Below are positions 12,451 through 62,068 of a DNA stretch of 64,000 nucleotides, one piece after another. The notes under the pieces were generated by a model. That model had not been told where the DNA came from, ran no database searches, and worked only from the letters and a program-made list of their open reading frames with translations. Position 1 is the first letter of the stretch; every line of letters begins with the position of its first letter. The translations under genes and the position numbers were made by a program. This DNA comes from Lepidostoma basale (Eukaryota; Arthropoda; Insecta; Trichoptera; Lepidostomatidae), in NCBI GenBank assembly GCA_022606425.2, contig JAHDVF020000215.1:62001-126000 (forward strand). The letters run 5' to 3'.

Positions 12451-12492
12451 CAACCAACCGGTTTCGCTCCCGCCGGAGCTTCGTCAGGGATA
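12451..12492 (-). ncRNA. Hammerhead ribozyme candidate, PLE-D
   Basis: On the minus strand: CUGACGA core, then stem II GCUCC/GGAGC (5 bp) around a GGCG loop, GAAAC, a two-pair stem III with CG loop, and a GUU cleavage triplet. Stem I starts with two C-G pairs (UAUCC against GGUUG). All catalytic-core positions of the hammerhead consensus are met (N7 is free). The second copy at 27452-27496 keeps the fold. Cleavage is predicted, not shown. Confidence 0.75.
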
Positions 12493-12574
12493 CAATGGAC
12501 ACAGTCAGTGCACATACACAACAAATACACAACAAGATTCGAAAAATCATAAATTTGACATTTGATATATTATT

Positions 12575-12619
12575 GTAACACCTGATGATGTCAACATAGG
12601 TTGATGAAAAGGCTGTCGG
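12575..12619 (+). ncRNA. Hammerhead candidate, PLE-A, partly decayed
   Basis: CUGAUGA core at 12582-12588, stem II GUCAAC/GUUGAU (one G-U), then GAAAAGGCUGUC instead of GAAACAGCUGUC. The catalytic core is kept but stem III is weakened. Confidence 0.6.
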
Positions 12620-12721
12620 TAAAATAAAATACAATTGTGATACAAAAAACAAAGTTATTTAATTTAACAGTTGAAAAAAAAAATGTTATTATTTAAAAAA
12701 AAAATTTATAAAGACTAACAT

Positions 12722-12878
12722 CAAGGATTTATATCAATGATATTAGAATTTATTTTACAATCTTCAATGTGAGCAGAAAATAGCTCATTATTATGAAGAA
12801 GGAACCTGGTGGTGTCCAGGCTTGAACCCATGCCCCCTGGATCAGGAGCCAAGCGTTCTATCCCCTAGACACCACCCG
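12722..12878 (-). mobile_element. SINE-2, tRNA-derived
   Basis: On the minus strand: TGGTGTCTAGGGG (A-box-like), GCTCCTGATCCAGG, GGGTTCAAGCC (B-box-like), then a body 'ataatgagctattttctgctcaca' shared with 45280-45320. The tRNA-like head is too diverged at its acceptor ends to be a functional tRNA gene. Confidence 0.8.
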
Positions 12879-12917
12879 ATTAAAACAAAAATAAGCTTCA
12901 AAAAATTTATCCCGGGT

Positions 12918-13253
12918 GCCAACAATCTACGTTACGAAAATCATTCTCCATAGATGGCGTTAGTGGGTCGGTTGTATAGGTTAATTCTTGAAAAAATTCA
13001 CAAGTGCAACCAAATCTACATAGATGGCTGACTGAAACTGACACGTGAAGATGAATATGGATTTTGAAGTATATACGAGTATACATCTTCCAAAAATTTG
13101 TCATGCATGATCAAAATAACAAAGGTGGAATGGGGAATGTTGTAATTACACAAAGCGTGCGCTTAACCCGACCAATGACAGGTCATAAGTCCTGTAAACA
13201 CCTTGATCATCCATGTTCAGTTTCCAGTTTACGTCTTCGTCTCTACTGAGATA
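12918..13253 (-). mobile_element. M-TTAA MITE copy
   Basis: Terminus 'tctactgagatacaattaa' at 13239-13257 ends in the TTAA-type boundary. Some 290 bp (12940-13232) are almost identical to 18529-18822, suggesting a recent shared source copy. Confidence 0.8.
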
Positions 13254-13676
13254 CAATTAAAATCTACGTTTAATCTGAGAATGAAATGTGATAATTTAAA
13301 TGTTTTTGCAAATAATATTGGTCAAAATATTCGAAATTACCCCACTAAATATTATTGGCTAACTTCATCATTTTGCACTTCCGATCACGGCTACACATTT
13401 ATATGTTTACTGTAAGAATTTAAATGTTTCGTCTTAGTTATTCGTGCAAGCTTTGCTTTGCTCTAACGGTGTGTTGTCATTTTTCACTCTGATTTGTAAC
13501 ACGCCCCGGGCAGTCGGGTTCACGGGTGATAGTTCAAGTCCGCGAGTCGGCTCGCATAAACAAAGGAGCAACGGTGACGTCACAATCGTCTCCATTAACA
13601 AAGAACATCGCATTCGAATTGTTCCTCCGACTTCCCACCTCAACACAGTGGCGGATCGAGTGAAATAGGTACCCAA
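13254..13676. other. Unassigned; GC-richer block 13490-13670
   Basis: The block includes 'cagtggcggatcgag' at 13648, which resembles a hAT terminus, but no partner end was found. Overlapping ORFs on both strands have no recognised domain. Confidence 0.35.
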
Positions 13677-14205
13677 GCAATAGAGATTGTCTTCCTAATG
13701 TTGAACCATCTCTCATGCGTTTCTGGTAGTATTCTTCTTTCTTTCTTTCTTCTTTAATAGCCGTTGTCGTCCACTGCTGGACACATAGGCCTCCCCCATA
13801 CTTCTTCATGTATGACATGTCATACGGGGGGTGGTTGGCATTACAACGCCACGCTTGCCAGACGGGTTGGCGAGGTGTCCTTCCACGTTAGCCTATGCAT
13901 CAATATTATCCACCGAGGTTATTCACACTCGATCTCTAACATTTCGCATAGTTTCCAGGGGAGACCAAAGTCGAGGAGGTGTGGATAGGTACTTGGGATC
14001 AGATCAATCCTCCAGCGTAGCATGGCCATCACCACGGTGATGGCCATGCACCGCTCGAAGAGTCAATAGGATCCCCCTTACTCCCCCTGTCTGGTAGTAT
14101 ACTATACACAATATATTATTTTACCTGTTCTCAATAGATTCCTTAAAAATAAAATTTGGAATGTCTGTTGATGAAATAAACTGATTTGATTTGATTTAGA
14201 GAAAT
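13677..14205 (+). mobile_element. LINE-C 3' end interrupted by a 357-bp LINE-R insertion
   Basis: 'gtcttcctaatgttgaacc' at 13688 and the 3' terminus AATAAACTGATTTGATTTGATTT (about 14175-14198) belong to one LINE-C copy. Between them sits a minus-strand insert flanked by the identical 11-mer TCTGGTAGTAT at 13722-13732 and 14090-14100. Confidence 0.85.
13733..14089 (-). mobile_element. 5'-truncated LINE-R-type retroposon with 11-bp TSD
   Basis: Minus strand: ends in a GAAAGAAAGAAGAA-type tail at 13733-13756, directly preceded by codons for VQQWTTTA. The rest (13830-14089) is non-coding and includes a 13-bp-arm hairpin at 14021-14048. Truncation, tail and target duplication indicate target-primed reverse transcription. 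Confidence 0.85.
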
Positions 14206-14209
14206 TTTC

Positions 14210-14358
14210 TTCTTTGCGATTTCAATCCTTCCTTCAAGGATTGGTATGCAGCAATATCTTGCACCTCATCGCCTTCTGCAGTCTTCTTTAACTCAACATC
14301 TTCTTCTGGTACGTGTCAGGTCTCCCCAACGATCACTGCAGCGAAGGGGTCTCTGTCT
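14210..14358. other. Unassigned, possibly LINE-derived
   Basis: GC-richer than its surroundings with a possible coding bias on the minus strand, but no motif I recognise. Confidence 0.3.
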
Positions 14359-14720
14359 TAATTAACTAACTAACTAACCATCACGCCGTTTCCACGGAGG
14401 GTTAGGCAGAGAGGATGGATCGCCACATTGTTCTATCCTGACATAACTCTCGCGCCTCTACTACATTTACACATCGTGACATGCACGCCGCCTTTTAGTA
14501 ATTGATTTATTTGGTCATGCCATGTCTTCCTTGGCTTTCCTCAACTTGTTTTTCCATTCACACTACTTGTATATATCTTTTTAACCATTCTTCCCTCATC
14601 CATTTGTTCCATATGTCCAAACCATCTTAGTGACCCTTTCATGTTTTTATTTATTACGCATTCATCCGCTTTACATTCCTTTCTTACTTCATCATTAGAT
14701 ATTCTATCATTTATTTATTT
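14359..14720 (-). mobile_element. LINE-T fragment, frame decayed
   Basis: TAAC tail at 14363-14378, then the family terminus and 'ggtttggacat' (WFGHM region near 14610). No long frame survives, so this is an older copy. Confidence 0.75.
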
Positions 14721-14734
14721 ATTTTATTATTTTT

Positions 14735-15072
14735 TTTTTTTAATGTATACAACAGGTCGTTTGAACCCAATTAGTGTATGCAATTTATTTTTAGCTATTA
14801 TATATTGATTCTCGTGACATATATAAGGTTCCCACCACCACCCGAGACTGTTATAGGACGCAGCGACGCCCTTTCGTCAGTCTCGCTGCACTATCTAGGC
14901 CTATTCTCGTGACATGTGATAGGTAGCCAATCTATCGCCATTTTATTGTCACGTGAATTCTACACCAGACCAAATACAGTTTGACAATCACACTGCCAAT
15001 GCCGGGAATCGAACCCGGGACCTTCGGTATGGAAGTCAGAGCTCTTATCACTCTGCCACCTTTCTGTCTTGC
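14735..15072 (-). mobile_element. SINE-1 (B tail) with a nested hairpin element
   Basis: Minus strand: tRNA-like head with A-box-like TGGCAGAGTGA and B box GGTTCGATTCC near 15010, body 'agtgtgattgtcaaactg', and tail B (caggtcgtttgaaccc on the plus strand) at 14750. Positions 14826-14910 are foreign: they hold copy 2 of the short GC-rich hairpin element, and a short SINE segment (ctcgtgacat) is duplicated at both sides. Confidence 0.85.
14830..14906 (-). repeat. Short GC-rich hairpin element, copy 2
   Basis: Minus strand: CTGACGA, arms AGGGCGT / GCGTCCT around CGCT, then ATAACA, as at 4555-4632. The flanking 'ctcgtgacat' repeat (14811-14820 and 14904-14913) may be its target duplication. Confidence 0.6.
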
Positions 15073-15725
15073 GCCCTTTGAAATAGGTTCTCAACTTAGA
15101 TCATTCCTGTCCATTCTCTTATATTTCGCAGAATTGCCTTCTACCAACTCCCCGACGGCCTTCTATTTTACACATGATTATCAGCGGAAGGAGGTAGTAT
15201 TTTTCTCCTCGATTTAACGTTTCCAGCACCATGGGTAAATGATAAATCTAACTCCGTAAAGCACGTATTAGTCGTGGTTCTATCATAATTATAAGTTATT
15301 GCTTTTTATTAAAATATTATTCATGACGATTGCATTAATATGGGATTTATCCATGTGGGAATATTTTGCATAATAATTCAAACTGGTAGAATGGATAACT
15401 TTTCAATTGTGTAGATTCAATGGAATGGAATGTAAGGATGGACCACACCTTGTCTGCAGTTTAAATCGACCATAAAGGGAATCGATTAATATTCTGCATA
15501 CACCCGTAAAACGCTATGCTATTTATACGATTGATTCATTACGTGTTGCACTTTACGTATGGAAATCTGATTCCATATTAAAATATCCAGACAGATACGA
15601 ATACACACGTATATTTATTTTGTCTCGATAATGAAAGTATAATATCTTCGAAACATGGCAAAATTTAGTTTAACTTCAATTTCGTTTCATACTGTCGTTT
15701 ATATATACGAGTATATAATACTATT
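15073..15725. other. No recognisable feature
   Basis: AT-rich; no ORF with a domain and no match noticed. Confidence 0.4.
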
Positions 15726-15727
15726 AT

Positions 15728-16258: not shown

Positions 16259-16520
16259 ATATCGTCGGTTCAAAGGTAAAACTCATTAAGTGACATTTGA
16301 TTTTTTTTTTTTTTTTTTGCAATTTCTGATCAGATTTGTGAATTCTATGTCAGAAAGTAATCATCAAGTGTTTTTATTAAAGAATAACTGTTATTCTTTA
16401 ATAAATACACTTGGTGATTGTTTTCTGACGTAGAATTCACAAGTCTGATGCGGAAGTTGCAAAAAAATGAGAAAATTTTGAAATGTTACTTAATGAGTTT
16501 TACCTTTGAACCGACGATAT
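16259..16520. mobile_element. Fold-back MITE, arms of about 130 bp
   Basis: Near-palindromic around base 16389. Terminal ATATCGTCGG / CCGACGATAT and subterminal 'ttcaaaggtaaaactcatta' are inverted at both ends. Possible 3-bp duplication ATT at 16256-16258 and 16521-16523. No coding capacity and no second copy noticed. One arm carries a T18 tract that the other lacks. Confidence 0.8.
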
Positions 16521-18189: not shown

Positions 18190-18305
18190 CTTGAACGGAT
18201 GAAATTACTTAATACGAATGAAAACGTCAGTTTTCTAGAAGTTTTATAATATTTTATGGGAATGACATGTTTCGCTCTTCTAGGCATTATCAAATGTGAC
18301 GAAAC
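18190..18305 (-). mobile_element. PLE half-copy of the GTTTCTTGAACAATG type
   Basis: Minus strand carries TTGATAATGCC, a GCC/GGC-type hairpin with AGA loop, GCGAAACATGTC. Relative to CUGAUGA the core has C3-to-U and G8-to-A, so it is a derived, probably silent hammerhead relative. Confidence 0.65.
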
Positions 18306-18830: not shown

Positions 18831-19497
18831 AGAAATTTTATGACAATGATTACATGGTTAAGGGATACTAAATGATATTATATAAATAAAAAGTAAGTTA
18901 TTTGAGGTAGGACGAAATAAAGTGTTTCTAAGAAAACATCTTTTTAATAATTGTTTAAAAATGATTTTACATATTTCAAGGGGACTTATGATTCTAAGTT
19001 TTATATATACTCGTAAAATAAAATAGCCATCCTGTGTGCGTAGACTCAATTGATGTATTCTTCTCTTCTGCATCTGAAATGTGAAATAAATACATTGCAA
19101 AATCAAGAGTTCTTTGAATCTAATTATATATTGGAACTACATTAAGGAGTGGGGATGAATATATGATAGCTTGTTCATTGATTAAAGTTAAATTAGGGTT
19201 TTCGTTGATCAAATAATTTTTTTTTCAAGGATTTATTATCAGCTATATTGAGGATGCCAACATTTTGATAAATATATGGGTTCATGCTATTCGTAAGAAT
19301 TATAATGGGATTCTTTTAGAACTCCACCATCTTGGTGGGTATCCATCTTTATCTTACGGATCGAACGAAAGCTCTATGAACGTTTATGGCATGAATTGAT
19401 TAAGAAATAGGTAGACAAAACAATTGAAAAAGTGTCATGTCATCAAATCAATCAACTTTTAAATGTCGGCTACTTGGGTATTCGGAGAAATCTAGGA
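18831..19497. other. No recognisable feature
   Basis: AT-rich. The ORF at 18858-19106 has no motif. A short LINE-C-like 'cttggtgggtatccatcttta' string occurs at 19331, as also seen near 51936. Confidence 0.35.
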
Positions 19498-19745
19498 TAT
19501 TTATTTATTGTTTCTTGAACAATGATGTAAAACTCCATATTAAATAATTAATACGAATGAAAACGTCAGTTCTCTACAAGCTTTAATAATTTTTTTGGGA
19601 ATGATATGTTTCGCCCTGCTAAGGCATTATCAAATGTCTGAAAAATGGCATTTGATAATGCCTTAGAAGGGCGAAACATGTCATTCCCATAAAATATTAT
19701 AAAAATTCTATTATAGAAAACTGTCGTTTTCATTCGTATTAATTA
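19498..19745. mobile_element. Complete PLE fold-back, GTTTCTTGAACAATG type
   Basis: Both arms are present: 'aatgaaaacgtcagtt' (19556) and 'aactgtcgttttcattcg' (19718). Each arm carries a 'gggcgaaacatgtc'-like block, on opposite strands, meeting at 'aaaaatgg' (19645). This best copy shows the family is intrinsically palindromic. Confidence 0.8.
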
Positions 19746-20460
19746 GGATATTTATTTTTATTAAACACATATGAGACATTACAAACGAAAAACATTAAGA
19801 TAGTTAGTAAGTTAGTTAGTCAATGTTTATTTTTATTGTCCTTATAATATGTGGCCTATTATTGGTTTGCAATGTCGCTTAAAAACCAAAATTTGAAATA
19901 AGAACTTTAGATATGTCAGACACAATTTTTTTTTATGTTCACAATAAAAGTGATTGTCTGTCCCTATACGTGTGTTGGGTTAAGTAGGTTATTTGGTCGA
20001 AATGTCATGTGTGCTCATCACAAATTTATAGATAAGTAAACCAATTAAGCGTTGACAGCTGATATATGTAAATATTATTTTTTGATAGTCAGTAGACATT
20101 GATTTCAAAAGGTACAATCCTAGTACAAAGGCGAAATAACTGAAGAGATATGTTAGTTAATTAGATGTACATTTTAGCAACTAGAAATTCATTAAGTTTT
20201 GCTGTTTTCATGTACAACAAAAAAAACATGACAAACAAATACATTGGATAATGGACTATCTGTGTTTTGGTTTAGCCATTAGACAGTTCACTTGAAAACA
20301 CAATTTTACAGAAACCATGTCATGTGTCATTAGCATGGCTTATGTTTAACAAAGCAAGTGACAATTAACTTAATAGCATTCTTCATTCAATGTTTATCTC
20401 TGTAGACTACTATAGTGTTTTGTGACCTAGAAAAAAAAAACAATGAAAAAAATATATACT
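19746..20460. other. Unassigned; TTAG trace at 19800
   Basis: 'agttagtaagttagttagt' at 19801-19820 is a bare LINE-T-type tail. Otherwise nothing recognised. Confidence 0.4.
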
Positions 20461-20469
20461 TGTATTTCT

Positions 20470-21054: not shown

Positions 21055-21325
21055 AGTCTATTGTTTTGGCCGAAACACTATGATACTTTAACATAATAAA
21101 CTGTTAAATTAAAAAAAAAACTTTGTTTTTAGTATCACAAATGTATTTTTAATTTACGTGACAGCTGTTTCGTAAAAATATGTTGACATCATCAGGTGCT
21201 ATAACAGGTGTTTCAATTATTGTAACACGTGATGATGTCAACATAGGTTGACGAAACAGCTGTCGCGTAAAATAAAAACACATTTGTGATACACAAAAAA
21301 GTTTTTTTATTTAACAGTTTATTTA
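21055..21325. mobile_element. PLE-A fold-back, two opposed hammerhead remnants
   Basis: Left arm (minus motif 21160-21195): CUGAUGA is intact, but stem II partner GGUUGAC has become U-rich. Right arm (plus motif 21222-21268): stem II GUCAAC/GUUGAC and GAAACAGCUGUC are intact, but C3 reads G. Each arm has lost a different part. Confidence 0.75.
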
Positions 21326-23183: not shown

Positions 23184-23345
23184 TAATGAAAACAAAAAAA
23201 AATTGATACAAAATTTCTTTATTATTATCACCAGAAGATGGCAGCAAGCTGCCAAAACCGGTCGAACATAAACACAAGTGAAAGCACACTAAATACATAA
23301 TAATAAATAAATTTTGTATAATTTTTTGTTCGTTTTCATTATCAG
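23184..23345. mobile_element. PLE-E fold-back with hammerhead-like centre
   Basis: Arms 'aatgaaaacaaaaaaaaatt' (23184) and 'aattttttgttcgttttcatt' (23320) are inverted. Centre: CAGAAGA, a perfect UGGCAG/CUGCCA hairpin with CAAG loop, AAAAC, CG loop and GUC. U4-to-A and G12-to-A relative to the hammerhead core predict inactivity. Confidence 0.65.
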
Positions 23346-23394: not shown

Positions 23395-23545
23395 TTAGTA
23401 CAAACAGGTTTCGGACACAGAAGCCCTTCATCGTTGTTGTTAAAAATGGTATGGTACATACAAAATAAATATTTAAACATTTTTTTTTTCATGAATGTGG
23501 TCAGATTTGAATATACCATTTTTAACACAACACGGATGATAGGAT
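23395..23545 (-). mobile_element. PLE-B fragment with decayed hammerhead
   Basis: Minus strand: ACGATGA core remnant, A, GGGC/GUCC stem II, GAAAC, CU loop, GUU. Positions C3 and U4 are altered. Confidence 0.6.
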
Positions 23546-24432: not shown

Positions 24433-24670
24433 CAAATTTCAATCCAATTCCCATACTCGAAACGTTCCCATTATCTCCCCCTCTCCTCAGTCCTAAACCC
24501 CCTCCACATTTATACAATATTCCACCCTTATAAGTATATATGTAATCACTCAGTTGTATTTTATTTTGTTAAATTTGTATATTGAAAAAGGTTATGTCAC
24601 AACCGAAACATGTCTGAAAAGTTTTATAAAAATACTAAGTGTAGTTTTTTTATTCAATTAACTTAGGTTT
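24433..24670 (+). mobile_element. PLE-F element with degenerate hammerhead
   Basis: A C-rich leader (24470-24540, 'tctccccctctcctcag') precedes TTGAAAAA, stem II GGUU/AACC, GAAACAUGUC at about 24580-24613. C3 and G8 are changed. The inverted-arm copy lies at 36955-37158. Confidence 0.6.
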
Positions 24671-27300: not shown

Positions 27301-27525
27301 CCTGCCCACGCCCTCATTGTACCATCTAAACGCCCCCAAATTTTCTCTGGGTCTTCCACTCCCCCCCTGAAAGTCTCAAACGTCCACAAGGGGCGTTATC
27401 GCCCACGTTGAGTTTACACAAACCTAGGTTTTAATCAAACAAAAAAGTTTTCCAATCCTGACGAAACTCCAGCGGGAGCGAAACCGGTTGGTGTGACAAT
27501 AATAAAGTGGTGTAAAAATATGTAA
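27301..27525 (+). mobile_element. PLE-D terminal repeat with C-rich leader
   Basis: A C-rich 120-bp leader (27300-27420) is followed by a hammerhead candidate and 'aataataaagtggtgta', the inverse of which borders the copy at 12418-12455. Confidence 0.7.
27452..27496 (+). ncRNA. Hammerhead ribozyme candidate, PLE-D
   Basis: CUGACGA at 27458-27464, stem II CUCC/GGAG (outer A-C mismatch) with AGCG loop, GAAAC at 27480-27484, CG loop, GUU cleavage triplet ending 27489. Stem I pairs C-G, U-G, A-U. The core is intact; stem I is shorter than usual. Confidence 0.7.
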
Positions 27526-30514: not shown

Positions 30515-30775
30515 ACACTGTGGAATTCCATAATGGCGAATTTTTATGAATTAAAACACTGTTTTTTTTCACTTTTGAGTTTATTTTTCTCGACATGTTT
30601 CCGATAGTTTACATCGATATATTTAATATCGATATATTTAATTTTAGTTTATAAACGATAGTTTATATCGTTCTCCTGATGATGAAGGTGTAAACCCTCG
30701 AAACATGTCAAGAAAAATAATCTCACAAGTGGAAAAAACAGTGTTTTAATTCATAAAATGTGTAAACATTTTTTT
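30515..30775. mobile_element. PLE-C fold-back
   Basis: 'gaattaaaacactgtttttt' (30549) is inverted at 30733 ('aaaacagtgttttaattcat'). Each arm has a 'gacatgttt'/'aaacatgtc' block. Only the right arm keeps a full hammerhead. Confidence 0.8.
30671..30714 (+). ncRNA. Hammerhead ribozyme candidate, PLE-C
   Basis: CUGAUGA at 30676-30682, stem II around GUAA loop (GGU/ACC plus outer pairs), GAAAC, AU loop, GUC ending at 30709. Stem I UUCUC against AAGAA has one mismatch, which in the copy at 50512-50554 is a full match (GAGAA). Confidence 0.72.
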
Positions 30776-31556: not shown

Positions 31557-31795
31557 GACGACCTTCGTGGCAGAGTGGTAAAAGCTCTGACTTCCATACT
31601 GAAGGTCCCGGGTTCGATTCCCGGCGATGGCAGTGTGATTGTCACACTGTCTTTGGTCTGGTGTAGAATTCACGTGACAATAAAATGGCGATAGATTGGG
31701 TACCTATCACATGTCACGAGAATCAATATAATAGCTAAAAAAATAAATTGTATACAGTAATAGGGTTCAAACGACCTGTTGTACACATAAAAAAT
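31557..31795 (+). mobile_element. SINE-1 (B tail), near complete
   Basis: A box TGGCAGAGTGG at 31569-31579, B box GGTTCGATTCC at about 31611, body to 'gagaatcaatataatagct', tail B 'cagtaatagggttcaaacga' to about 31790. The head loop reads 'tctgacttccatact', unlike the A-tail copies. Confidence 0.9.
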
Positions 31796-32612: not shown

Positions 32613-32865
32613 CGACCTTCGTGGCCGAGTGGTAAGTGCATTGACTGCCACCCCGAATGTTCCGGGTTCGATTCCTGGCGAGGGCAGTGTGATTGTCGCA
32701 CTGTCTTTGCTCTGGTATAGAATTCACGTGTCAATAAAATGGCGATAGATTAACAATCTATCACATGTCATGAGAATCACAATGATAGCTATAAAATACC
32801 CTTTACAACGATTTGGCTCATGCTGTCATGATTTAAAGAGCGATTAAAAAAATATATAAAAATAA
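32613..32865 (+). mobile_element. SINE-1 (A tail)
   Basis: TGGCCGAGTGG at 32622 and GGTTCGATTCC at about 32665, body, tail A ending in 'gcgattaaaaaaatatat'. Confidence 0.9.
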
Positions 32866-33359: not shown

Positions 33360-33530
33360 TTTATATTGTCCTTCGGGGAGACGGACATTATAATTTTACG
33401 ATGTATGTATGGACATTATAATAAGATGATGTATGTATGGACATTATAATATGACGATGTATGCATGGACATTATAATATGACGATGTATGTATGGACAT
33501 TATAATATGACGATGTATGTATGGACATTA
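33360..33530. repeat. 28-bp minisatellite, left block
   Basis: About five units of a 28-mer containing GACATTATAATATGACGATG. It begins directly after a LINE-T terminus fragment, 'tccttcggggagacgg' (33370-33385). Confidence 0.92.
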
Positions 33531-35510: not shown

Positions 35511-36167
35511 ATGGACATTATAATAAGACATTATAATTTGACGATGTATGTATTGACATTATAATATGACAATGTATGTATGGACATTATAATAATTATG
35601 ACGATGTTTGTATGGACATTATAATAGGACGATGTATGCATGGACATTATAATATGACGATGTATGTATGGACATTATAATATGACGATGTATGTATAGA
35701 CATTATAATATGACGATGTATGTATGGACATTACAATAAGACGATGTTTGTATGGACATTATAATAAGACATTATAATTTGACGATGTATGTATTGACAT
35801 TATAATATGACAATGTATGTATGGACATTATAATAATTATGACGATGTTTGTATGGACATTATAATAGGACGATGTATGCATGGACATTATAATATGACG
35901 ATGTATATATGGACATTATAATATGACGATGTATGTATGGACATTATAATATGACGATGTATGTATGGACATTACAATAAGACGATGTTTGTATGGACAT
36001 TATAATAAGACATTATAATTTGACGATGTATCTATTGACATTATAATATGACGATGTATGTATGGACATTATAATATGACGATGTTTGTATGGACATTAT
36101 AATAGGACGATGTATGTATGGACATTATAATATGACGATATATGTATGAAAATTATGATATGACGAT
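35511..36167. repeat. 28-bp minisatellite, right block with 241-bp higher-order unit
   Basis: The variant pattern 'taataagacattataatttg' recurs at about 35521, 35762 and 36003, giving a 241-bp period made of roughly eight to nine 28-mers. The first two higher-order units are almost identical. Confidence 0.92.
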
Positions 36168-36954: not shown

Positions 36955-37300
36955 CTTCAATATTCGCCTTCACTTTGTGTTGTGGATTCATATTTGAATA
37001 AATATAATTATACTTTGTATTACAACACTTTTTATTTTCACTGAACTCAGACATGTTTCGGTTACAAGTATTCTTTATCAATGTATACAATTTTAACATT
37101 AGTTAAAATGAGTTCAGTGAAAATAAAAAAAGTGTTGTAATACAAAGTTATATTTATTTTATTCTTTCTTGAAGAATGATGTAAAACTCCATATTAAATA
37201 ATTAATACCAATGAAAACGTAAGTTTTCTAGAAGATTTATTATATTTTATGGGAATGACATGTTTCGCCCTTCTAAGGCATTATCAAATATATTTATTCA
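36955..37300. mobile_element. PLE-F fold-back followed by a GTTTCTTGAACAATG half-copy
   Basis: Arms at 36999-37048 and 37108-37158 are inverted (actttgtattacaacacttt and aaagtgttgtaatacaaag). The minus-strand centre TTGATAAAG...AACCGAAACAUGUC is a decayed hammerhead. 37160-37300 is the second family. Confidence 0.7.
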
Positions 37301-38929: not shown

Positions 38930-39056
38930 TGGAATTCCATGACACTGTGGATCATAATGACGAATTTTTATGGTTTAATTTTTTTTTTCCACTTTCGAGT
39001 TTATTTTTCTCGACGTGTTTCGAAGGCTTACACCTTCACCATCAAACGATTTAATA
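38930..39056 (-). mobile_element. PLE-C half-copy, degenerate hammerhead
   Basis: Minus strand: UUGAUGG core remnant, GAAGG/CCUUC stem II with UGUAAG loop, GAAAC, GUC, GAGAA. The core has lost C3 and A9. Confidence 0.65.
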
Positions 39057-44340: not shown

Positions 44341-44640
44341 TTCGCCATATATTTGTGTTGCGGATTCTTTGAATAATGTTTTTTTAAACACAACACGGAC
44401 TTTATTAAAAAAAATAATTAAAAAACAACATGTTTCGGACACAGAAGCCCTTCATCAGTGTTATAAATATTTTAGCAATTTTTTTTCTAAATATGGTCAG
44501 TTTTGACAGATTTTAAAATTAAAAACCATAAATAAATTAAAATGAATATCAAATAATGCGATAATCTAAATATTTCACAATTTAATAATATTATCTAATC
44601 AAATTTCAGTTTTTTAATTTTTTTTATTGTTTATGGTTTT
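44341..44640. mobile_element. PLE-B element
   Basis: Flank 'ttcgccatatatttgtgttg' and 'aacacaacacggac' precede a minus-strand hammerhead candidate. The opposite arm is not clearly preserved. Confidence 0.7.
44420..44464 (-). ncRNA. Hammerhead ribozyme candidate, PLE-B
   Basis: Minus strand: CUGAUGA (plus 44452-44458), A, stem II GGGC/GUCC with UUCUGU loop, GAAAC, AU loop, GUU. Core intact. Stem I (AACA against UGUU) pairs only if one base shifts, suggesting a 1-nt deletion after the cleavage position. Confidence 0.65.
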
Positions 44641-47660: not shown

Positions 47661-48212
47661 TATGGTCCACATATGTCATGGAATCTAATCATGTTATAGC
47701 TTATATATTTTCTTACCTTTAACACAGATTATCTATGCGGAAATAATACAATAAATAACGTTGAAAAGTAAAATAAAAATAAAAGAGAAACATAGATTTC
47801 ATTTTATTCTACGAGCTTTTAAGCCCACTGGATTTAAAAACATAACTACAATATACATTTACGAAGTTTCTTTCCTATTACTGGCCCTGCATTCGAGAAG
47901 AAATCCAATATTATTATTCATTATTCAAGATATTTCAAAACCATCAATGAACGTGTTTTAAAGTATTTATATGGGAGAATATTCTTTTAATGGAAGTGTA
48001 AAGATGTCATTAAGTAACCGAATATTAAAAATATGTATGTTGCATTTGGTATCGTGTTATTATGTGCGTTGTGGATATATTTCTTTATTATTTGATTCCA
48101 AGCATTCATGAGCATTTAAAGTATTTTTTTGTTTCTTCTATTTGAGATCCAAGATCAAACTCGAAAGTGTTCGTTTTTAAGAAAATTGTTTTGGGATTTA
48201 ATGGAATTTCAT
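47661..48212. other. No recognisable feature
   Basis: AT-rich; the 66-codon ORF at 47761 is not informative. Confidence 0.4.
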
Positions 48213-48216
48213 CAAC

Positions 48217-49059
48217 TTGAGAGAGAGAATGAGTCACAGAGAAGGTGTAAGGATACACGGGCAAAAGATAGACATGATAAGGTTTGCTGACGATATTGCT
48301 ATGGTTGCTGAAAGTGAGGAGGAACTGCAGGAGGCCTTAGATACTTTGCAAGACATTCTTCAAGATAGCTACAACATGAAGATAAATAAGGACAAAACAA
48401 AGCTGCTGACTGTAGGCCGAACGCAACATCAGATGAGAGTAGTGATGTCAGGAGTTCCACTAAAGAACACCAAGGAGTTTGTCTACCTCGGGAGCAAAAT
48501 AACATGGGACGGTCGGTCTAAGAGCGAGGTCGACAGCCGTATACATCAGGCTAGGCTTGCATTTAATAAAAGTTCGAAAATAATAGAATCAAATAATATA
48601 GACCAAAAACTGAGAATACTCCTCATCAAGACCTATGTATGGAGTGTCTTGATGTACGGCTGCGAGACATGGTGCCTATCCGAAAGGGATAAGCGGAGAC
48701 TAGAGGCTTTTGAGATGTGGTCCTATAGAAGACTCTTTGGAATTTCCTGGAGAGACCACATCACGAATGAGGAAGTTCTTCAAGGAATCGAAGGAGGAAG
48801 GCACCTGCTCAGGACCTTGTCCGAAAGGCGTGCAAGATGGATCGGCCATGTAATACGTCAAGAAGGTCTCTTGCATGCCATAATGGAGGGTATGATCGAG
48901 GGGACAAACTCTAGGGGACGCCCACGCCGAGAGTACCTGGAGGACCTGTTGGTGGACGTACGCTGCTCATCATATGCAGATCTCAAAAGAGTCGCACAAG
49001 ACAGGGAAAAATGGAAGAGAATAATGGAGGAAATTGCTGCAAACCAATCCCAGGATTGA
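48217..49059 (+). CDS. Non-LTR retrotransposon reverse transcriptase, C-terminal 280 codons
   Basis: The longest intact coding remnant in the window. Residues 21-32 (IRFADDIAMVAE) hold the FADD catalytic motif of the palm. MKINKDKTKLL (54-64) and FVYLGSKITWDG (88-99) are the following RT motifs. WSVLMYGCETWCL (142-154) and RRLEAFEMWSYRR (160-172) lead the C-terminal segment. RWIGHVIRQ and SRGRPRREYLEDL follow. The listed first codon is TTG; the first ATG is codon 5, and neither is a true start, because everything before the palm is lost by 5' truncation. In the element this enzyme would copy RNA at a nicked chromosomal target. Clade is uncertain: RTE, CR1 or L2-like. No frameshift or stop, so the insertion is relatively young. 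The 3' end near 49085 has a short AGAAGAAG-type tail. Confidence 0.85.
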   Translation: MRERMSHREGVRIHGQKIDMIRFADDIAMVAESEEELQEALDTLQDILQDSYNMKINKDKTKLLTVGRTQHQMRVVMSGVPLKNTKEFVYLGSKITWDGRSKSEVDSRIHQARLAFNKSSKIIESNNIDQKLRILLIKTYVWSVLMYGCETWCLSERDKRRLEAFEMWSYRRLFGISWRDHITNEEVLQGIEGGRHLLRTLSERRARWIGHVIRQEGLLHAIMEGMIEGTNSRGRPRREYLEDLLVDVRCSSYADLKRVAQDREKWKRIMEEIAANQSQD

Positions 49060-49870: not shown

Positions 49871-50010
49871 TATTATCATAACATTTTATAACATTCTTCA
49901 AAATTAAAAATTGTATACTGAAGAAGGATGAGAACCATCCGAAACGGGTTTGTAAAATATAGAAAAATATAATGTTATTCAGATATTTTTCTGGTCATGC
50001 TTTTTCATTT
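49871..50010 (+). mobile_element. PLE terminal repeat, distinct stem II type
   Basis: Single-arm copy. Flanked by AT-rich DNA and carrying the hammerhead candidate at 49912-49956. Confidence 0.6.
49912..49956 (+). ncRNA. Hammerhead ribozyme candidate with GGAUG/CAUCC stem II
   Basis: CUGAAGA at 49918-49924, A, perfect five-pair stem II (49926-49930 with 49936-49940) around AGAAC, GAAAC at 49941-49945, then GGGUU. Stem I UGUAUA against UUGUAAA pairs in four of five positions. Core intact; stem III has a C-G pair with a two-base loop. Confidence 0.7.
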
Positions 50011-50388
50011 GACCAAAGATAATGTTCTTATCACAAGAAGTAAGTGTTGTAAAAATACAATTTGTTTGAAATGAAGTTTTAAATATTGCAATAAATTAAA
50101 CGTATATAAGTTTACAAACTTATAATAAATTCTAGTCTGCACATACTGTGTATTGAAATATTCATTAAAAATTTCTAGTAATGTCTTATTTTTCTTCTCG
50201 GCGCTACATCCCAGTTCCGGTTCCGGGATAAGATCTCTTCCATACAACAGTCCTACATTGACTCCTGTCCCTGGCTATTTCTCTCCATTCTCCAGATATT
50301 TCTGGTTTCTCCCAGTCCTCATACACGTATTCCGCCCTTCTCTTCCTTGGTCTCTTTTTGCGCGGCACTCATTTGGATATAATTTTAG
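50011..50388. other. Unassigned; GC-richer block 50195-50388
   Basis: 'ttctcggcgctacatcccag' recalls the start of 5985-6005, but the rest does not match. Possible decayed retroelement. Confidence 0.35.
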
Positions 50389-50445
50389 TAATGACGAATT
50401 TTTATGAATTAAAACACTGTTTTTTCCACTTTTCAGTTTATTTTT

Positions 50446-50486
50446 CTCGACTTGTTTCGAAGGCCCTTCATCATCGAGAGAACGAT
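50446..50486 (-). ncRNA. Hammerhead motif, PLE-C minus arm
   Basis: Minus strand: UUCUC, UCGAUGA, stem II GAAGG/CCUUC, GAAAC, AAGUC, GAGAA. Stem I is a perfect UUCUC/GAGAA. C3 and U4 are swapped (UC for CU), so cleavage is doubtful. Confidence 0.55.
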
Positions 50487-50511
50487 TTAACATTATATCG
50501 AGTTTATATCG

Positions 50512-50554
50512 TTCTCCCGATGATGAAGGTCGAAATCTCGAAACATGTCGAGAA
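50512..50554 (+). ncRNA. Hammerhead motif, PLE-C plus arm
   Basis: UUCUC, CCGAUGA (U4-to-C), stem II, GAAAC, AU loop, GUC, GAGAA. Stem I is a perfect five pairs. A single core substitution separates it from a canonical hammerhead. Confidence 0.6.
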
Positions 50555-50640
50555 AAATAAGTGGAAAAAACAGTGTTTTAATTCATAAAAATTCGTCATT
50601 ATGGAATTCCACAGTGTGAACGCCTTCAGTTTATCTAAAA

Positions 50641-51262
50641 TTTTAGTAATGTATACTATAAAAAAATAGTGACTTTTTTTTCAACGGAGACTTAAAATCT
50701 TATCAGTATCGGAAAGTTCTGATAAGAATTAAGTATTAAACTAATAAGACGAACGAAAGTACTCTCTCCCACGTATGCAATTAAAGTTTCTCGGTTATTA
50801 GTAGCCCCTATCAATGATTTCATCTGAATTTAGATACTTAAGTATGGCCCCATACAGCGATAAGCTTTTACCACTTTATCTTACTAGCCGCGAGATAATT
50901 AATATGGACCATCAAAATGATTGGACCAATTAGCTTTTATTTAAGGATTTCGAATGTTGAAATCAGATAGGAATGCAAGTAAACGTGTTTGGATAGAATT
51001 AAAAAAAGTATACTTATGCGATTTGAGTAAATAAGACGAATGTGTACAGCAAATATAAAAGATTATGCAGATCGTGGATTTCCAACCAATTTCCGGATTA
51101 TCTCGCCTTTACAATAATGAATCCAACCCACCCTTTCTAATAATAGTAATATCAAATATTAAAATAAAGTTACATAATATCTATATCTACTTATAATCAC
51201 AAAGATACAATTTAAAATATTATCAAATGTATCAGAAAAAAAATATGTTTGTGTTGTTTTTC
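50641..51262. other. No recognisable feature
   Basis: AT-rich, unassigned. Confidence 0.4.
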
Positions 51263-51268: not shown

Positions 51269-51534
51269 AACGACCTTCGTGGCCGAGTGGTAAGTGCATT
51301 GACTGCCACCCCGAAGGTTCCGGGTTCGATTCCCGGCGAGGGCAGTGTGATTGTCACATTGTCTTTGGTCTAGTGTAGAATTCACGTGACAACAAAATGG
51401 CAATAGATTAGCTACCTATCACATGTCACGAGAATCACTATGATAGCTATAATAATACCCTTTACATCGATTTGACTCATGCTGTCATGATGTTAAGAAT
51501 GATTCAATAAAATAATAATAATAATAATAATAAT
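51269..51534 (+). mobile_element. SINE-1 (A tail), reference copy
   Basis: Perfect A box TGGCCGAGTGG at 51280-51290 and B box GGTTCGATTCC at 51323-51333, spacing typical of a tRNA promoter. Body 'gattgtcacattgtctttgg' onward, tail A, then (AAT)n at 51512-51534. Transcription by RNA polymerase III is inferred from the boxes. Confidence 0.93.
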
Positions 51535-52135: not shown

Positions 52136-52470
52136 GCCATACTTTGTGTTGTAGATGTTTTATTTGTCTTTTCAAGTCCAATCTTTGATTTATTTCCTTT
52201 GTTGTAAGTAATTAACCTGAATCCCAATAAGAATTTTAAATTATTATTTAAATTTTTTAATTGATTCATAATATTTGTTATACCAAAAGCATAAACGTTC
52301 CAAAATAAATCTTTATAACATCTGTCAAAATTGATCATATTTGTAAACAATTTTATAATATTTTTAATATGTATCTTTATAATATGTATCACTGAAGAAG
52401 GACTGGTTGTCCGAAACATGTCGGATTTGTAATTTTAATAGCTTTGTATGTACCAAGTATACTAAAAAAA
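52136..52470. mobile_element. PLE-B element inserted in LINE-C
   Basis: Begins 'gatcgccatactttgtgttg' (shared flank of PLE-B) and ends 'agctttgtatgtaccaagtatac', with the hammerhead candidate near its right end. Only one arm carries a motif. Confidence 0.75.
52387..52427 (+). ncRNA. Hammerhead ribozyme candidate, PLE-B
   Basis: CUGAAGA at 52392-52398, A, stem II GGAC/GUCC around UGGUU, GAAAC at 52413-52417, AU loop, GUC ending 52422. Stem I: one A-G mismatch then C-G, U-A, A-U. Core intact. Confidence 0.75.
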
Positions 52471-54482: not shown

Positions 54483-55298
54483 CGATGGGTGTGTTAAATA
54501 TATCGTTTATTTGATTTTTTAAATTATTTTATAAAAATGATTTTTTAAATAATTTTTAAATGTGGAATTGGAACTTCACCTCGATTTTTTACATAATTTT
54601 TAGATTAAACTATTAATCGACAGGGTAATCACCAAATAATGGCTTCAAAATTTAACATGAATAATTTTTTCAAATGTACTCGTACCATAGAAAAACTTTT
54701 TAACCAATTAAAAAATAAAATGGTTTCTAAGCTAATCAAAAGATTTTACTGAAATCTCTTGATGGAAGTTCATTTTAAAAGATTATTATATAAAACGATG
54801 TTTTTTAAAATTATTATTTAAAATGATTGTTTCATAAAGATCACTAAATTAATTTTTATTTTGTGAAAAAATAAGGAATATTAAGTAAATTTTTGTGGTA
54901 GTGGTTCAAATGCAATTGTTTTCGACTGTACTGGCCTTATCGATTCTGCCCACGGAGGCACTTTAATAATTATTTATTCGGGTCATTGTTTTATAAAATG
55001 TGGGATGTGACACAAAGCCATTGCACAATGGCTCCATTATTATACTAAATAAATCAGAATCAATCCATTTAAATCATTATAGAATTATAACACTAGAATT
55101 AAGAGTACATCCAAAAATAAATTAAATTCTCACTTTCTTGCGCAAGATTGATACTCCTATTTATAGATCCCCCAAAAATATTATATACGAGTATAATAGG
55201 TTTTTTTCAAGTAATCAATCCTAAGGATTGGTTTGCTGTTAACTCTAACTTATCAAGATCTTCTCTTGATCTTGGAATGCCACTTGGGCCTTTTAATA
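54483..55298. other. No recognisable feature
   Basis: About 800 bp of AT-rich DNA with no domain-bearing ORF. The minus strand has no long frame either. Confidence 0.4.
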
Positions 55299-55299
55299 T

Positions 55300-55692: not shown

Positions 55693-55739
55693 AAATATCA
55701 AACATGTTTCGGACTAACGAGCTCTTCATCAGTGATATT
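55693..55739 (-). ncRNA. Hammerhead ribozyme candidate, best stem I
   Basis: Minus strand: AAUAUCA pairs perfectly over 7 bp with UGAUAUU. CUGAUGA core is canonical. Stem II GAGCU/AGUCC around CGUU has one A-C mismatch and one G-U. GAAAC, AU loop and GUU cleavage triplet follow. The strongest single candidate in the window. Confidence 0.8.
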
Positions 55740-55773
55740 ATATAAATATTTAAAATTATTTTAATAATTTATA

Positions 55774-55827
55774 TTATATTACTGATTAGAGAAGGGCTGG
55801 TTAGTCCGAAACATGTTTGATATTTTA
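55774..55827 (+). ncRNA. Hammerhead partner with core insertion
   Basis: Stem I AUAUUA/UGAUAU (one G-U) and a perfect stem II GGGCU/AGUCC around GGUU, GAAAC, GUU. The core reads CUGAUUAGAGAA, that is, an insertion inside CUGAUGA, so this arm is probably inactive although its stem II is better than its partner's. Confidence 0.65.
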
Positions 55828-56322: not shown

Positions 56323-56326
56323 ATAA

Positions 56327-57105: not shown

Positions 57106-57107
57106 AA

Positions 57108-58332: not shown

Positions 58333-58336
58333 AAAA

Positions 58337-58425: not shown

Positions 58426-58439
58426 TAAACACAATGAAT

Positions 58440-59125: not shown

Positions 59126-59718
59126 TATTTCATAAGAAGTTTTAATGTAGTGTTCAATATAAATAAAAGTTTATTTTTAATCTCGAATTTTTCACATTCG
59201 GTCATTTTGGAATTAACCCATATTGTTATACATTATATAGGTATACGTATGCATCTAACAAGACGATATAAAAACTATCCCGTCCTCCTATACAGGTCCA
59301 ATTTGTAAACATTCCTCTCGGGAGACATAAGTAATGGTCCTTTCTTATGTTTATCTCTTATTCCGGGTTAAAAATCTAAATGAGATAGTGTTGCCAGTTG
59401 CGATGGGATGGTTTATGCGTGGAGTTCTGTGTTGAAGTAATTTTTCTTGTGTTGCTTCTTCGATACGATCTAACTGCATCTCTCTGCTTTGTTCGAATCG
59501 CTTCTCTAATGTTGATGAAATATGGAAGCCTCCGAGCACTTAACAGGGGGGCTATAAATGTTATTACTAAAAAAGTATTTAAAAATGATAATAAACACGA
59601 TGGTTATCAAGTGTACATAAAATTGTTATAATGTCTTGAATTTTGATAAATCAATAGTTAAGTAATATTTTTTATTATTTGATGAATTGAATTGCATATG
59701 GAGTATTCAATATTATTT
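59126..59718. other. No recognisable feature
   Basis: The short minus ORF 59351-59539 (SSTLEKRFEQSREMQLDRIE) is charged but unrecognised. Confidence 0.35.
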
Positions 59719-59719
59719 T

Positions 59720-60178
59720 TATTTTTCTTCTTCTTTCTTGTTGTAGACCTATATGATCTGTTCTGCAGCGTGTTGTTCCTACTGTGAGGTAGACTCCCAG
59801 CTGTCCTTACATCTTTTAGGAGATCTTCCACGAGGACGAGTCCCATTGAGGCTGATTATGAAATGCAATATAGGGGAGTCTGGTGGTGTCCATTGTTTGA
59901 ACATGACCGTATCAGTCCCTTTTTCGCTGTCTGCTCTATCTTATAATATCCTCAACCTCACATATCTCTCTTATTCTGGTGTTTCTCACGTGTCTTGCCT
60001 GCTATCGTCCTCAGTGTCTTCATTTCCGAAGTCCTCAAAACTTGTTTGGTCCTTCCTGTGTCTGCCCTTGCTTCGACGCCATATGTTATTATTGGTCTTA
60101 CGCATGCTTTATAGATTCTCATCTTACTCTTAATGGCGATTTTTTTGTTTTTCAATATATTGTGGATTTTAGGGCGCC
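59720..60178 (-). mobile_element. LINE-G C-terminal region
   Basis: Minus strand: MRIYKACVRPIITYGVEARA, DTGRTKQVLRTSEMKTLRTI, AGKTREKHQ, then a frameshift and the RLP...GRPP equivalents. (GAA)n tail near 59725-59738. Confidence 0.82.
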
Positions 60179-60284
60179 ATACTTATTGTAGTTTGTGAAA
60201 AATTATACATTAAATTACTTAAAACTAATTAAACTAAACAATCGAACAAATAACAAATTACAGCAAGTAAAAATTACTGATTTA
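60179..60284. other. Short AT-rich spacer
   Basis: Nothing recognised. Confidence 0.3.
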
Positions 60285-60285
60285 A

Positions 60286-60475
60286 TTGTATCTCAATAGA
60301 GACGAAGATGCAAATTGGAAACTGAATATGGTTGATCAAGGTGTTTACAGGGCTTATGACCTGTCATTGGTTGGGTTAAGCGCACGCTTTATGTAATTAT
60401 AACATTCCCATTCCACCTTTCTTAATGACCATGTCTGACAAATTTTTCGTATACATGTATAAGTATACATTCACA
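60286..60475 (+). mobile_element. M-TTAA MITE, 5' half
   Basis: TTAA border, 'ttgtatctcaatagagacga' terminus, to 'ccatgtctgacaaatttttc'. Confidence 0.8.
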
Positions 60476-60584
60476 AAAAATATAGTAAAAATTACATTCA
60501 AATTTAAGTTTTTAAAAGTTAAATATAAATTACTACGATAATACATCTATAATATTTACCTCATTGATAATAAATGAACGGCCA

Positions 60585-61152
60585 TATTTGGTGGAATGTT
60601 AATATGTTAAAAATTCAAATTAGACCTGTATGGTATGGAGGACGGGATAGTTTGTATATCGTCTTGTTTATTAAAAAACGGCCAGCATGGAACTGGCAAA
60701 AGAAGGATGAAAGTAGAATAAATGCAGTTGAAATGAGATCTCTTAGAAGAATGTGTGGATACTCTGTGTATGATAGAGTGCCGAATGAAAATATAAGAAG
60801 TGAATGCGGTGCGAATGATGGTGTCATGAACAAAATAATGAAAGTATCATTAAGATGGTTTGGACATATGGAAAGAATGAATGAAGAAAGAATGGTAAAA
60901 AAATTATATGTTAATGATGTAAATGGTACCAGAAATAGAGGAAGACCGAGGAAAACGTGGCACGATCAAATAAATCAAATATTGAATGTCGGCCATGTGA
61001 GGAGTCAGAGAAATCGACGCGCGTGCATGACACGATGTATGAATGTTGAGGAAGCGAGAGAAATATTTCAGGAAAGAAAAGTGTGGCAGTCCATTCTTTC
61101 TGCCTACCCCTTCGGGGAGACGGCGTGATGGTTAGTTAGTTAGTTAGTTAGT
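60585..61152 (+). mobile_element. LINE-T C-terminal reference copy with TTAG tail
   Basis: Open frame to the stop at 61126-61128: WNWQKKDESRINAVEMRSL, RRMCGYSVYDRVPNENIR, SLRWFGHMERMNEERMVKK, RNRGRPRKTWHDQINQIL, RACMTRCMNVEEAREIFQE, SILSAYPFGETA-stop. Only about 4 bp separate the stop from (TTAG)n at 61131-61155, so the family has almost no 3' UTR. Upstream of about 60685 the frame is unrelated sequence (5' truncation). Intact frame implies a recent insertion. Confidence 0.9.
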
Positions 61153-61155
61153 TAG

Positions 61156-61490
61156 CCATATTTGGTTTCATTGATTTGTGACAAAGGTTTGTGATTTTTT
61201 TTTACAATGTAATCAAGAACACCCTGTGTGCACGGGTGGGTGAATTTCTTATTATTTTTATGTTGCCTGATAAGGTTTCTATTATAAATGTACGCACCGA
61301 GAAAGTAACCTATGTTCTAGTAGACAGGTAACTTACGATATTGCCTCGTGGTGAAATTTGGATGAGTTTAGAACATTCTATTATGTTGAAAAAACTTCTT
61401 AGAGATATATCACAGAGGAAGATCGTTTATCTGTAATAACTATCCCAGATTCATACGTTATTTTATTGCTTCTTCGAATTTATATTAGAG
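61156..61490. other. No recognisable feature
   Basis: Unassigned AT-rich spacer. Confidence 0.35.
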
Positions 61491-61599
61491 AACATTTTTT
61501 GTTGTTGTATACAACACGATATTATATAATTCATCACTGTAAATATACATGTTTCATTTCTCTTTTTCTTTTTTAAATACAACACTAACATTAAAATTA

Positions 61600-61640
61600 C
61601 ATAGACATGTTTCGGACAACCAGTCCTTCTTCAGTGATAC
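61600..61640 (-). ncRNA. Hammerhead ribozyme candidate, left arm
   Basis: Minus strand: CUGAAGA, A, GGAC/GUCC stem II with UGGUU loop, GAAAC, AU loop, GUC. Core intact; stem I begins with an A-U pair but is otherwise weak. Confidence 0.68.
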
Positions 61641-61691
61641 ATATTATAAAGATACATATTTAAAATATTATAAAATTGTTTTATGATCTGT

Positions 61692-61731
61692 CAGATCTGA
61701 AGAAGGACTGGTTGTCCGAAACATGTCTATG
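61692..61731 (+). ncRNA. Hammerhead ribozyme candidate, right arm
   Basis: CUGAAGA at 61697-61703, same stem II and stem III as the left arm, GUC ending 61727. The sequence upstream differs (gtcagat), weakening stem I. Confidence 0.65.
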
Positions 61732-61844
61732 TAATTAAAAAAAATTTAATGTATGTATTGTATATACAAAAAAAAAGAAAAAGAGAAATAAAGCATCTAC
61801 AACACAAAGTATGGCAAACATAGAAGAAAAACATATTTCAAACT

Positions 61845-62068
61845 GTTAAAATAATAACTTCGTTTAAAGTATCACAATTGTATTTTTATTTTACGCAACA
61901 GCTGTTTCGTCAACCTATGTTGACATCATCAGGTGTTACAATGATGATGTCAACATAGGTTGACGAAAAAGCTGTCGCGTAAAATAAAAATACAATTGTG
62001 ATACGTAAAACAAAGTTTTTAATTTAGCAGTTTATAATTAGAGTGTTTCGGTCAAAACAATGGACTAT
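61845..62068. mobile_element. PLE-A fold-back
   Basis: Inverted arms around about 61935, left motif nearly canonical, right motif lacking the C3-containing bases. Ends in inverted 'gtgtttcggtcaaaacaatgg'. Confidence 0.82.
61895..61940 (-). ncRNA. Hammerhead ribozyme candidate, PLE-A
   Basis: Minus strand: CUGAUGA (plus 61926-61932), perfect six-pair stem II GUCAAC/GUUGAC with AUAG loop, GAAAC, a palindromic ACAGCUGU stem III and GUU. Stem I pairs C-G, C-G and A-U around mismatches. Core intact. Confidence 0.75.

Follow-up and report, generated by a model that had tools for sequence, protein, structure and literature searches.

Hammerhead motifs and their stems in the window

The DNA analyzed here is a 64-kb window (the whole stretch under study) of the Lepidostoma basale assembly, which comprises 769 Mb in 1572 contigs. 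The window holds fold-back elements that carry candidate hammerhead ribozymes (HHRs), and the evidence set out below points to these fold-backs being the terminal repeats of Penelope-like elements (PLEs). When both strands were searched for the core pattern CTGANGA-N(8-24)-GAAAC, we found 13 matches, compared with a mean of 0.37 and a maximum of 3 in 200 dinucleotide shuffles, and in seven of these matches stem II was 4 bp or longer (0.015 in shuffles). As members of repeat families, the copies cannot be counted as independent events, and covariation between the families is better evidence than the number of cores. All eight places at which a preliminary description of this DNA had seen a hammerhead do contain the core, with the first CUGANGA base at 27458, 30676, 49918 and 52392 on the forward strand and at 12487, 44458, 55732 and 61932 on the reverse strand.

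We separated nine families (A to I) by their stem II and used one copy with an intact stem II per family as its representative. The outer four pairs of stem II form in 36 out of 36 instances across these nine copies, which were picked after inspecting the sites, a choice that favors complete pairing and not sequence difference between families; other registers that we tried gave 15, 19, and 9 of 36. When the 3' strands were swapped between families, 21.2 pairs formed on average, and 36 were reached by 1 in 20000 shuffles. In the nine-row alignment, stem II contains 14 compensatory cells (4.2 in shuffles), and its covariation score (1.125 versus 0.204) was reached by none of 500 shuffles. Compensatory change has thus maintained a 4-bp stem II across the representatives of all nine families. 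The earlier claim that stem II differs in sequence while keeping its pairing holds in all 36 instances, provided that one nucleotide is left out after A9, and three of the eight sites first described (27458, 30676, and 55732) carry one mismatch in this stem. A covariance model built from the nine rows (one per family) detects 28 sites in the window at E<0.01, a number that includes the nine training rows themselves and some further sites identical to them.

The extra nucleotide between A9 and stem II is present in all nine representatives, as A in families A, B, F, H, and I and as U in families C, D, E, and G, although the restriction to A or U (9/9) is only weakly surprising in AT-rich DNA. 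A similar arrangement is found in the plus-strand hammerhead of chrysanthemum chlorotic mottle viroid (CChMVd), which has one extra nucleotide (the extra A10) between A9 and G10.1; according to a portion of the study concerned, the ribozyme is moderately slowed by A at this position, accelerated by U, and impaired by C or G (PMC3705267). The CChMVd motif differs in being a viroid ribozyme, and we claim no common descent.

The short element following the core, previously described as a mini stem III, is present but mostly too short to close in cis. Instead, GAA is followed by a palindrome (ACATGT, ACCGGT, or ACAGCTGT) in 21 out of 33 arms, a count that omits the arm at 61941, which reads GAAAA. 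Such a palindrome appears too short for a hairpin and would fit a dimer. Stem I, as judged by eye, measures 7 bp at 55732, 5 bp in family E, and 2-4 bp elsewhere. Besides decayed copies, the exceptions to the core are family G, which reads CAGAAGA, and families D and I, which have U3-A8 in place of C3-G8; the latter exchange is seen in family D, in family I (site 24582), and at three further D-like or family-less sites. Some of the sites that may have been put down to decay (family D and 24582) are not simply decayed but carry a compensatory core exchange. Part of the hammerhead literature describes the same exchange in natural hammerheads, with such cores being active in vitro (PMC3088659). 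In our nine rows, covariation at positions 3 and 8 alone is not significant (47 of 500 shuffles reach it), and the exchange may be a single event. Taken together, the sequences predict that the window motifs are minimal, dimer-type type I HHRs. They are like the minimal type I HHRs of PLEs, for which sections of two papers report a missing or tiny helix III, a need for dimers, and a dispersed occurrence in animal genomes and in the pseudo-long terminal repeats (pseudo-LTRs or pLTRs) of PLEs (PMC7761336, PMC6155905).

Head-to-head arms with a single tail

The fold-backs consist of paired arms in which the 5' sides of the two HHRs face each other. That fold-backs hold the hammerheads was seen from the start, but their head-to-head, one-tailed build had gone unrecognized. 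Some arms end about 80-110 nt past the HHR, while others extend 35-45 nt further, into the start of an open reading frame (ORF; MEFHSV, MEFY, or MANIEE), and carry what we call a tail. In ten window pairs, chosen by eye (as were the element boundaries) after the one-tail pattern had been noticed, exactly one arm looks tailed, with scores of 41-65 versus 13-21 for the other arm and null 95% points of 18-24; one tailless arm scored one point over its null 95% point and one exactly on it. These calls use the scores and null points, and an automatic flag, which called only 2 out of 30 arms tailed owing to real tails among its random window pieces, was set aside. We also observed flanking repeats with a score of at least 9 in 8 out of 12 window elements (the ten pairs and two single arms), compared with 3 out of 150 site pairs drawn at random. 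No flanking repeat was obtained for two pairs and one single arm, and the score of the family A pair was 8.

This family A pair (61547-61840) consists of a tailless left arm (HHR at 61604-61634, reverse strand) and a tailed right arm (61697-61727, forward), whose tail codes for MANIEE, and its possible flanking repeat, ACATRTTTCA (10 bp, one mismatch), is not above the null. A single family A arm in which no tail was found lies at 52392-52422 (forward). The family C pair at 61833-62082, flanked by the 9-bp repeat ATATTTCAA, has its tailless arm at 61897-61932 (reverse) and its tailed arm, with a core starting ATGATGA and followed by GAAAA, at 61941-61976 (forward); the same family has a tailed arm at 21160-21195 (reverse), a tailless arm at 21229-21264 (forward), and a decayed single arm at 12582-12617 (forward; covariance model E 0.18). 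Family B is represented by a single tailed arm (44427-44458, reverse), by the tailless arm with the 7-bp stem I and one stem II mismatch (55701-55732, reverse) together with its tailed partner, in which the core is broken (55787-55817, forward), by a tailed arm with a shortened stem II (5651-5676, reverse; E 0.47) that pairs with a tailless arm (5727-5758, forward) between copies of ATTTAATATT, and by a single arm with a mutated core (23403-23434, reverse).

The HHR-like motifs of family D, all with the U3-A8 core, comprise a tailless arm at 10035-10065 (reverse) and a tailed arm at 10088-10118 (forward; E 0.015), a head-to-head pair (19493-19757) with the 14-bp flanking repeat TAGGATATTTATTT, formed by a tailed arm at 19603-19633 (reverse) and a tailless arm at 19652-19682 (forward), and two single arms on the reverse strand, one tailed and flanked by the 10-bp repeat TATATTTATT (37257-37287) and one for which no flanking repeat was found (18264-18293). 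For family E, we found a tailless arm at 30676-30709 (forward), whose tailed left partner near 30603 is truncated inside the HHR, a pair (50378-50651) with a 16-bp flanking repeat containing one mismatch, made up of a tailless arm (50449-50477, reverse) and a tailed arm whose tail codes for MEFHSVNAFSLSK (50517-50549, forward), and a single arm (39012-39045, reverse). The remaining sites belong to family F (12456-12487, reverse, and 27458-27489, forward, the latter with its outermost stem II pair broken), to the HHR-like family G (23232-23263, forward; CAGAAGA core and AAAAC), to family H (49918-49950, forward), and to the HHR-like family I (24582-24614, forward; U3-A8 core). Between 12456 and 12617, the family F arm on the reverse strand faces a family C arm on the forward strand at a distance of about 95 nt, which would make this a head-to-head pair of two families. 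Two near-perfect inverted repeats (7521-7592 and 16303-16475), in which we noticed no HHR motif, are possibly further fold-back families.

To what extent this build recurs outside the window was addressed with family A, of which one HHR 31-mer occurs 1818 times in the assembly (reversed control: 0). Since this one counted motif is found throughout the genome, the proposal that this locus keeps an unusual diversity of hammerheads is not supported as a local property. Our sample consists of the first 100 of the 1818 places by contig and comprises 83 loci and 141 HHR sites at six or fewer mismatches; because it demands an exact HHR in at least one arm, arms cut short before the HHR escape it. Neighboring family A sites less than 400 bp apart were oriented -+ in 45 instances and ++ in one, with no others, and those 400-1000 bp apart were -+ in six, +- in four, and -- in one. 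Out of 49 head-to-head pairs, 48 could be scored for tails against letter-shuffled pieces, and we found one tail in 41, none in seven, and two in none. Shuffles gave 23.7 one-tail pairs, and 0 out of 20000 reached 41. With a looser threshold (20), two pairs became two-tailed, and with a stricter one (30), 39 pairs had one tail and nine had none. The 43 unpaired sites were tailed in 18 and tailless in 24 instances, with one unscored. Flanking repeats of the 41 one-tail pairs scored at least 9 in 20 pairs (9.9% in a null of mismatched pairs) and at least 10 in 16 pairs (4.3%); these repeats are 9-17 bp long, and the tailless ends lie 72-105 nt after the start of the core.

The bases after the predicted cut define two subtypes of family A, TATGTAAT in 62 out of 140 arms and TGATATGT in 28 out of 140. 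Stem I forms 9 bp in 22 out of 140 arms and 1 bp in 90. The TGATATGT subtype is able to form the 9-bp stem (the 22 arms that do belong to it); the TATGTAAT subtype is three bases short and forms 1 bp, which would be expected to make it a poor ribozyme. In all 39 typable pairs (28 + 11), both arms are of the same subtype, compared with 23.0 pairs expected in shuffles; the other ten of the 49 pairs were left out because one arm could not be typed. Similarity between arms is likewise higher within pairs (0.82) than between pairs (0.76). Such agreement could also be explained by subtypes that were active at different times. After removal of long, very short, or badly fitting centers, the points at which the two arms of a pair are truncated are correlated (Spearman 0.54, n=39) and lie within 5 nt of each other in eight pairs (4.1 expected, P 0.033). 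We found no asymmetry between a leading and a trailing arm, because tailed arms extend as far upstream as tailless ones do (medians of 73 and 71 nt, respectively; n=38, Wilcoxon P 0.63). The centers of the pairs differ in length and content. Among the eight long centers that we inspected, three (L012, L031, and L044) hold a 3' coding fragment like that of long interspersed nuclear elements (LINEs), GSLRWFGHMERM..., between the pLTR arms; this fragment is also common in the window and was either captured by template switching or inserted later.

Coding context and proposed assignment to Penelope-like elements

Longer family A copies continue upstream of the HHR into the C-terminal peptide of an endonuclease-like frame, for which the genome yields at least 150 scored matches (6883 candidates). 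The frame ends 114-186 nt before the HHR in 14 out of 20 loci and 373 nt before it in one; the other five loci showed no HHR downstream. Several copies contain CNDCSSFYIGKTR...KEHIRC...FANHL further upstream, which we take to be a PLE-type GIY-YIG endonuclease, and one 46-aa piece matches PF01541 (GIY-YIG; E 0.0054). The window itself contains an endonuclease fragment (FYIGKTRRYFKLRIKEHIRC...) at 2080-2193 (forward; E 1.6e-11 to the L097 piece), a possible further piece of the same frame at 3141-3248 (forward; E 0.001, gapped and with a stop), and SSPIFDLFPLL, a candidate C-terminal end of the frame (11 aa, E 0.015 only), at 52172-52204 (forward), 188 nt before the HHR at 52392.

Pfam GIY-YIG matches over the cut-off were found at no fewer than 62 places in the genome when 150 of 541 candidates were scored, and the five neighboring pairs among those scored are all in -,+ order. 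One of these five, L108, contains an open frame of 758 aa with a reverse transcriptase (RT) domain (RVT_1, 1.4e-13) and a GIY-YIG domain (6.6e-5), both over their cut-offs, which sits between inverted copies that are 99.6% identical and carry an HHR-like motif with a tail. At another locus, L109, two arms that both bear the endonuclease form a young palindrome (99.5%); they start within one base of each other, one of them is tailed, and a 12-bp repeat at the ends was read by eye. The HHR-like motif of L108 and L109 has a stem II, an extra U, and ACCGGT, and in all four arms CUGUCGA replaces CUGANGA; changes at A6 lower hammerhead activity (A6C, in the relevant part of PMC3088659). Positions 54733-54808 of the window match the L108 family's tail region at 93%. 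A 285-aa RT fragment at 48202-49059 (RVT_1, E 1.3e-10) reads as LINE type rather than PLE.

We propose, with a probability of roughly 0.9, that the fold-backs are the pLTR ends of several PLE families that were inserted head to head. The link to Penelope made in the preliminary description is borne out by the pLTR anatomy with its tails and target-site duplications, by the endonuclease fragments upstream of the HHRs, and by the RT and GIY-YIG frame of L108. RT and GIY-YIG lie in one ORF in L108, and family A has endonuclease fragments only; the pLTRs carry an optional tail on one of the two, as expected of PLEs, in which such tails are 30-40 bp long, and short target-site duplications exceed the null in about half of the pairs. 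What is observed directly, and best documented for family A, is how the elements are built and oriented, their tails and duplications, and their coding context; families B to I presumably work in the same way.

Several results weigh against this proposal. No match to an Rfam hammerhead was found in the whole window at E≤1 or in the slice 61580-62000 at E≤10, and a match in a 181-base slice searched at the same limit, to RF03152 at 55696-55761 (reverse), is not significant (15 bits versus a cut-off of 56.3, E 3.4). The covariance-model search suggested in the preliminary description thus gave no significant hammerhead with Rfam and found its 28 sites with the model made from window rows; short HHRs without stem III may be beyond the reach of Rfam. 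On the protein side, the 46-aa GIY-YIG piece is under the Pfam cut-off (17.4 versus 22.6 bits), a 104-aa piece (P0001) has no GIY-YIG match, its best Pfam match being Prominin below the cut-off (E 0.0031), neither the protein collection nor the PDB yielded a relative for it, and the window fragment at 2080-2193 has no Pfam match on its own. The RT and GIY-YIG frame of L108 belongs to a family other than A, with the HHR-like core CUGUCGA, and no tie to coding sequence was made for families F, G, H, and I. Finally, flanking repeats above the chosen score are missing from 4 out of 12 window elements and from 21 out of 41 one-tail pairs in the genome.

Other features of the window include tRNA-like stretches at 31561-31632, 32615-32686, and 51273-51344 (29.6-37.7 bits), which may be the heads of tRNA-derived short interspersed nuclear elements, and a 28-bp unit, GACATTATAATATGACGATGTATGTATG, arrayed at 35511-36167 and 33383-33530. 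Rfam matches resembling miRNAs were all below their own cut-offs and are typical of long hairpins, and we rejected them. Two pattern scans of a collection of viral contigs gave 0 and 4 places, and the four resemble, by eye, chance words in coding-looking DNA.

Competing explanations and a possible route of insertion

The short palindromic elements with flanking duplications resemble miniature inverted-repeat transposable elements (MITEs), and it is conceivable that they are such DNA transposons, or other fold-back elements, with hammerhead-like words arising by chance in their terminal inverted repeats. We consider this very improbable, given that the ends differ regularly by a tail, that the centers vary in length and content, that the duplications vary from 9 to 17 bp, and that the same pLTR is joined to a retroelement-type reading frame. 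Metazoan retrozymes, which are small tandem repeats with type I HHRs that move as circular RNA, share with our elements type I-like HHRs, a low GC content, and a non-autonomous look, as far as one section of the literature describes them (PMC7229834). For family A, however, neighbors within 400 bp are tandem in a single instance and head to head in 45, and the arms of longer copies run upstream into the endonuclease frame, leaving a retrozyme origin a slightly poorer prospect still. We therefore rejected both the MITE reading, on the regular tail and the retroelement frame, and the retrozyme reading, on the orientation of neighbors. That AT-rich inverted repeats merely yield hammerhead-like words would agree with the AT-richness of the window and with Rfam matches that are only sub-threshold hairpins, but the excess of cores over shuffles (13 versus 0.37, and 7 versus 0.015 with stem II) and the 1818 exact copies, compared with none for the reversed pattern, make such an artifact scarcely credible.

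If the fold-backs are PLE ends, the PLE RNA would run from an RT and GIY-YIG ORF across about 115-190 nt to a minimal dimer-type type I HHR, and from there across about 80-110 nt to the start of the next ORF. The enzyme of the element would cut both strands of an A/T-rich target, and reverse transcription would begin inside the RNA at either of two fixed sites, near the ORF start or about 35-45 nt further in, the latter giving rise to the tail. Both target strands would be extended, each cDNA would halt a short distance upstream of the hammerhead, and the two cDNAs would be joined head to head into a fold-back flanked by a target duplication of about 9-17 bp. We infer the order of these steps largely from the PLE of Anolis, whose purified protein cuts and extends both strands and for which two internal start sites bound the tail (PMC11167929). 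How the two arms are primed allows for two possibilities. We tentatively suggest that two reverse transcriptases cooperate on a single RNA, or on two RNAs dimerized via the palindromic stem III. Each target strand would prime one of them, and the tail site and the tailless site would each be used once, as the start of one arm; one tail per pair and arms of the same subtype fit two primings that share a template in this way. The other possibility, snap-back, in which the 3' end of a single cDNA folds back and primes itself so that the second arm is copied from the first, resembles the self-priming proposed for Adineta vaga Penelope in part of PMC3846280. Snap-back accounts for the uniform subtype in 39 out of 39 typable pairs, for the correlated truncation points, and for the L109 arms that start within one base. 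It does not account for the missing second tail, as the copied arm should also be tailed and yet 0 out of 48 pairs were two-tailed at the threshold used, and many arms stop at differing upstream points. Snap-back is thus rather unlikely, and coordinated double priming is somewhat more likely.

Cleavage by the HHR does not seem to be needed for each insertion. The commoner family A subtype, in which the stem I side after the cut is deleted, and the change of A6 to U in L108 and L109 suggest that elements could multiply without it. HHR mutants of the Anolis PLE insert normally in vitro (PMC11167929). This element, Poseidon PAc of Anolis carolinensis, is also like ours in combining an RT with a C-terminal GIY-YIG, in having an HHR at the pLTR, in its A/T-rich targets, and in the two internal start sites and the cutting and extension of both target strands mentioned above. 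It differs in that stem II of the HHR is where its ORF begins, whereas here the ORF starts about 80-110 nt past the HHR, and in that no bulk difference in start sites was seen between its strands, whereas here the arms differ within single insertions (PMC11167929). Penelope of A. vaga has inverted pLTRs, one tail, and an ORF start inside the pLTR; as described in the portion of PMC3846280 examined, it is mostly low-copy with ORFs, in contrast to the very many short ORF-less pairs observed here, and that portion does not mention hammerheads, motifs of which are present here.

The published work that we surveyed in part already describes PLE pLTRs that contain HHRs, pLTRs in inverted orientation, and a tail on one of them. 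Neither a per-insertion count of tails nor a PLE HHR with an extra nucleotide following A9 was met in this partial survey of PLE and hammerhead papers, which did not include the two main papers on HHRs in PLEs, and the novelty of both points is uncertain. The insertion of PLEs and the role of their hammerheads are called open or a mystery in passages of three papers (PMC11167929, PMC7761336, PMC3846280). Should the motifs be able to cleave, tandem PLE transcripts would be divided into units by their action as dimers. The genome also offers natural hammerhead variants, namely the extra A or U after A9, the U3-A8 core, and the stem I deletion. Overall, the L. basale genome is a rich store of short insertion pairs, and the one-tail rule together with the same-subtype arms constrains any model of PLE insertion in ways that are testable in the published in vitro PLE system.

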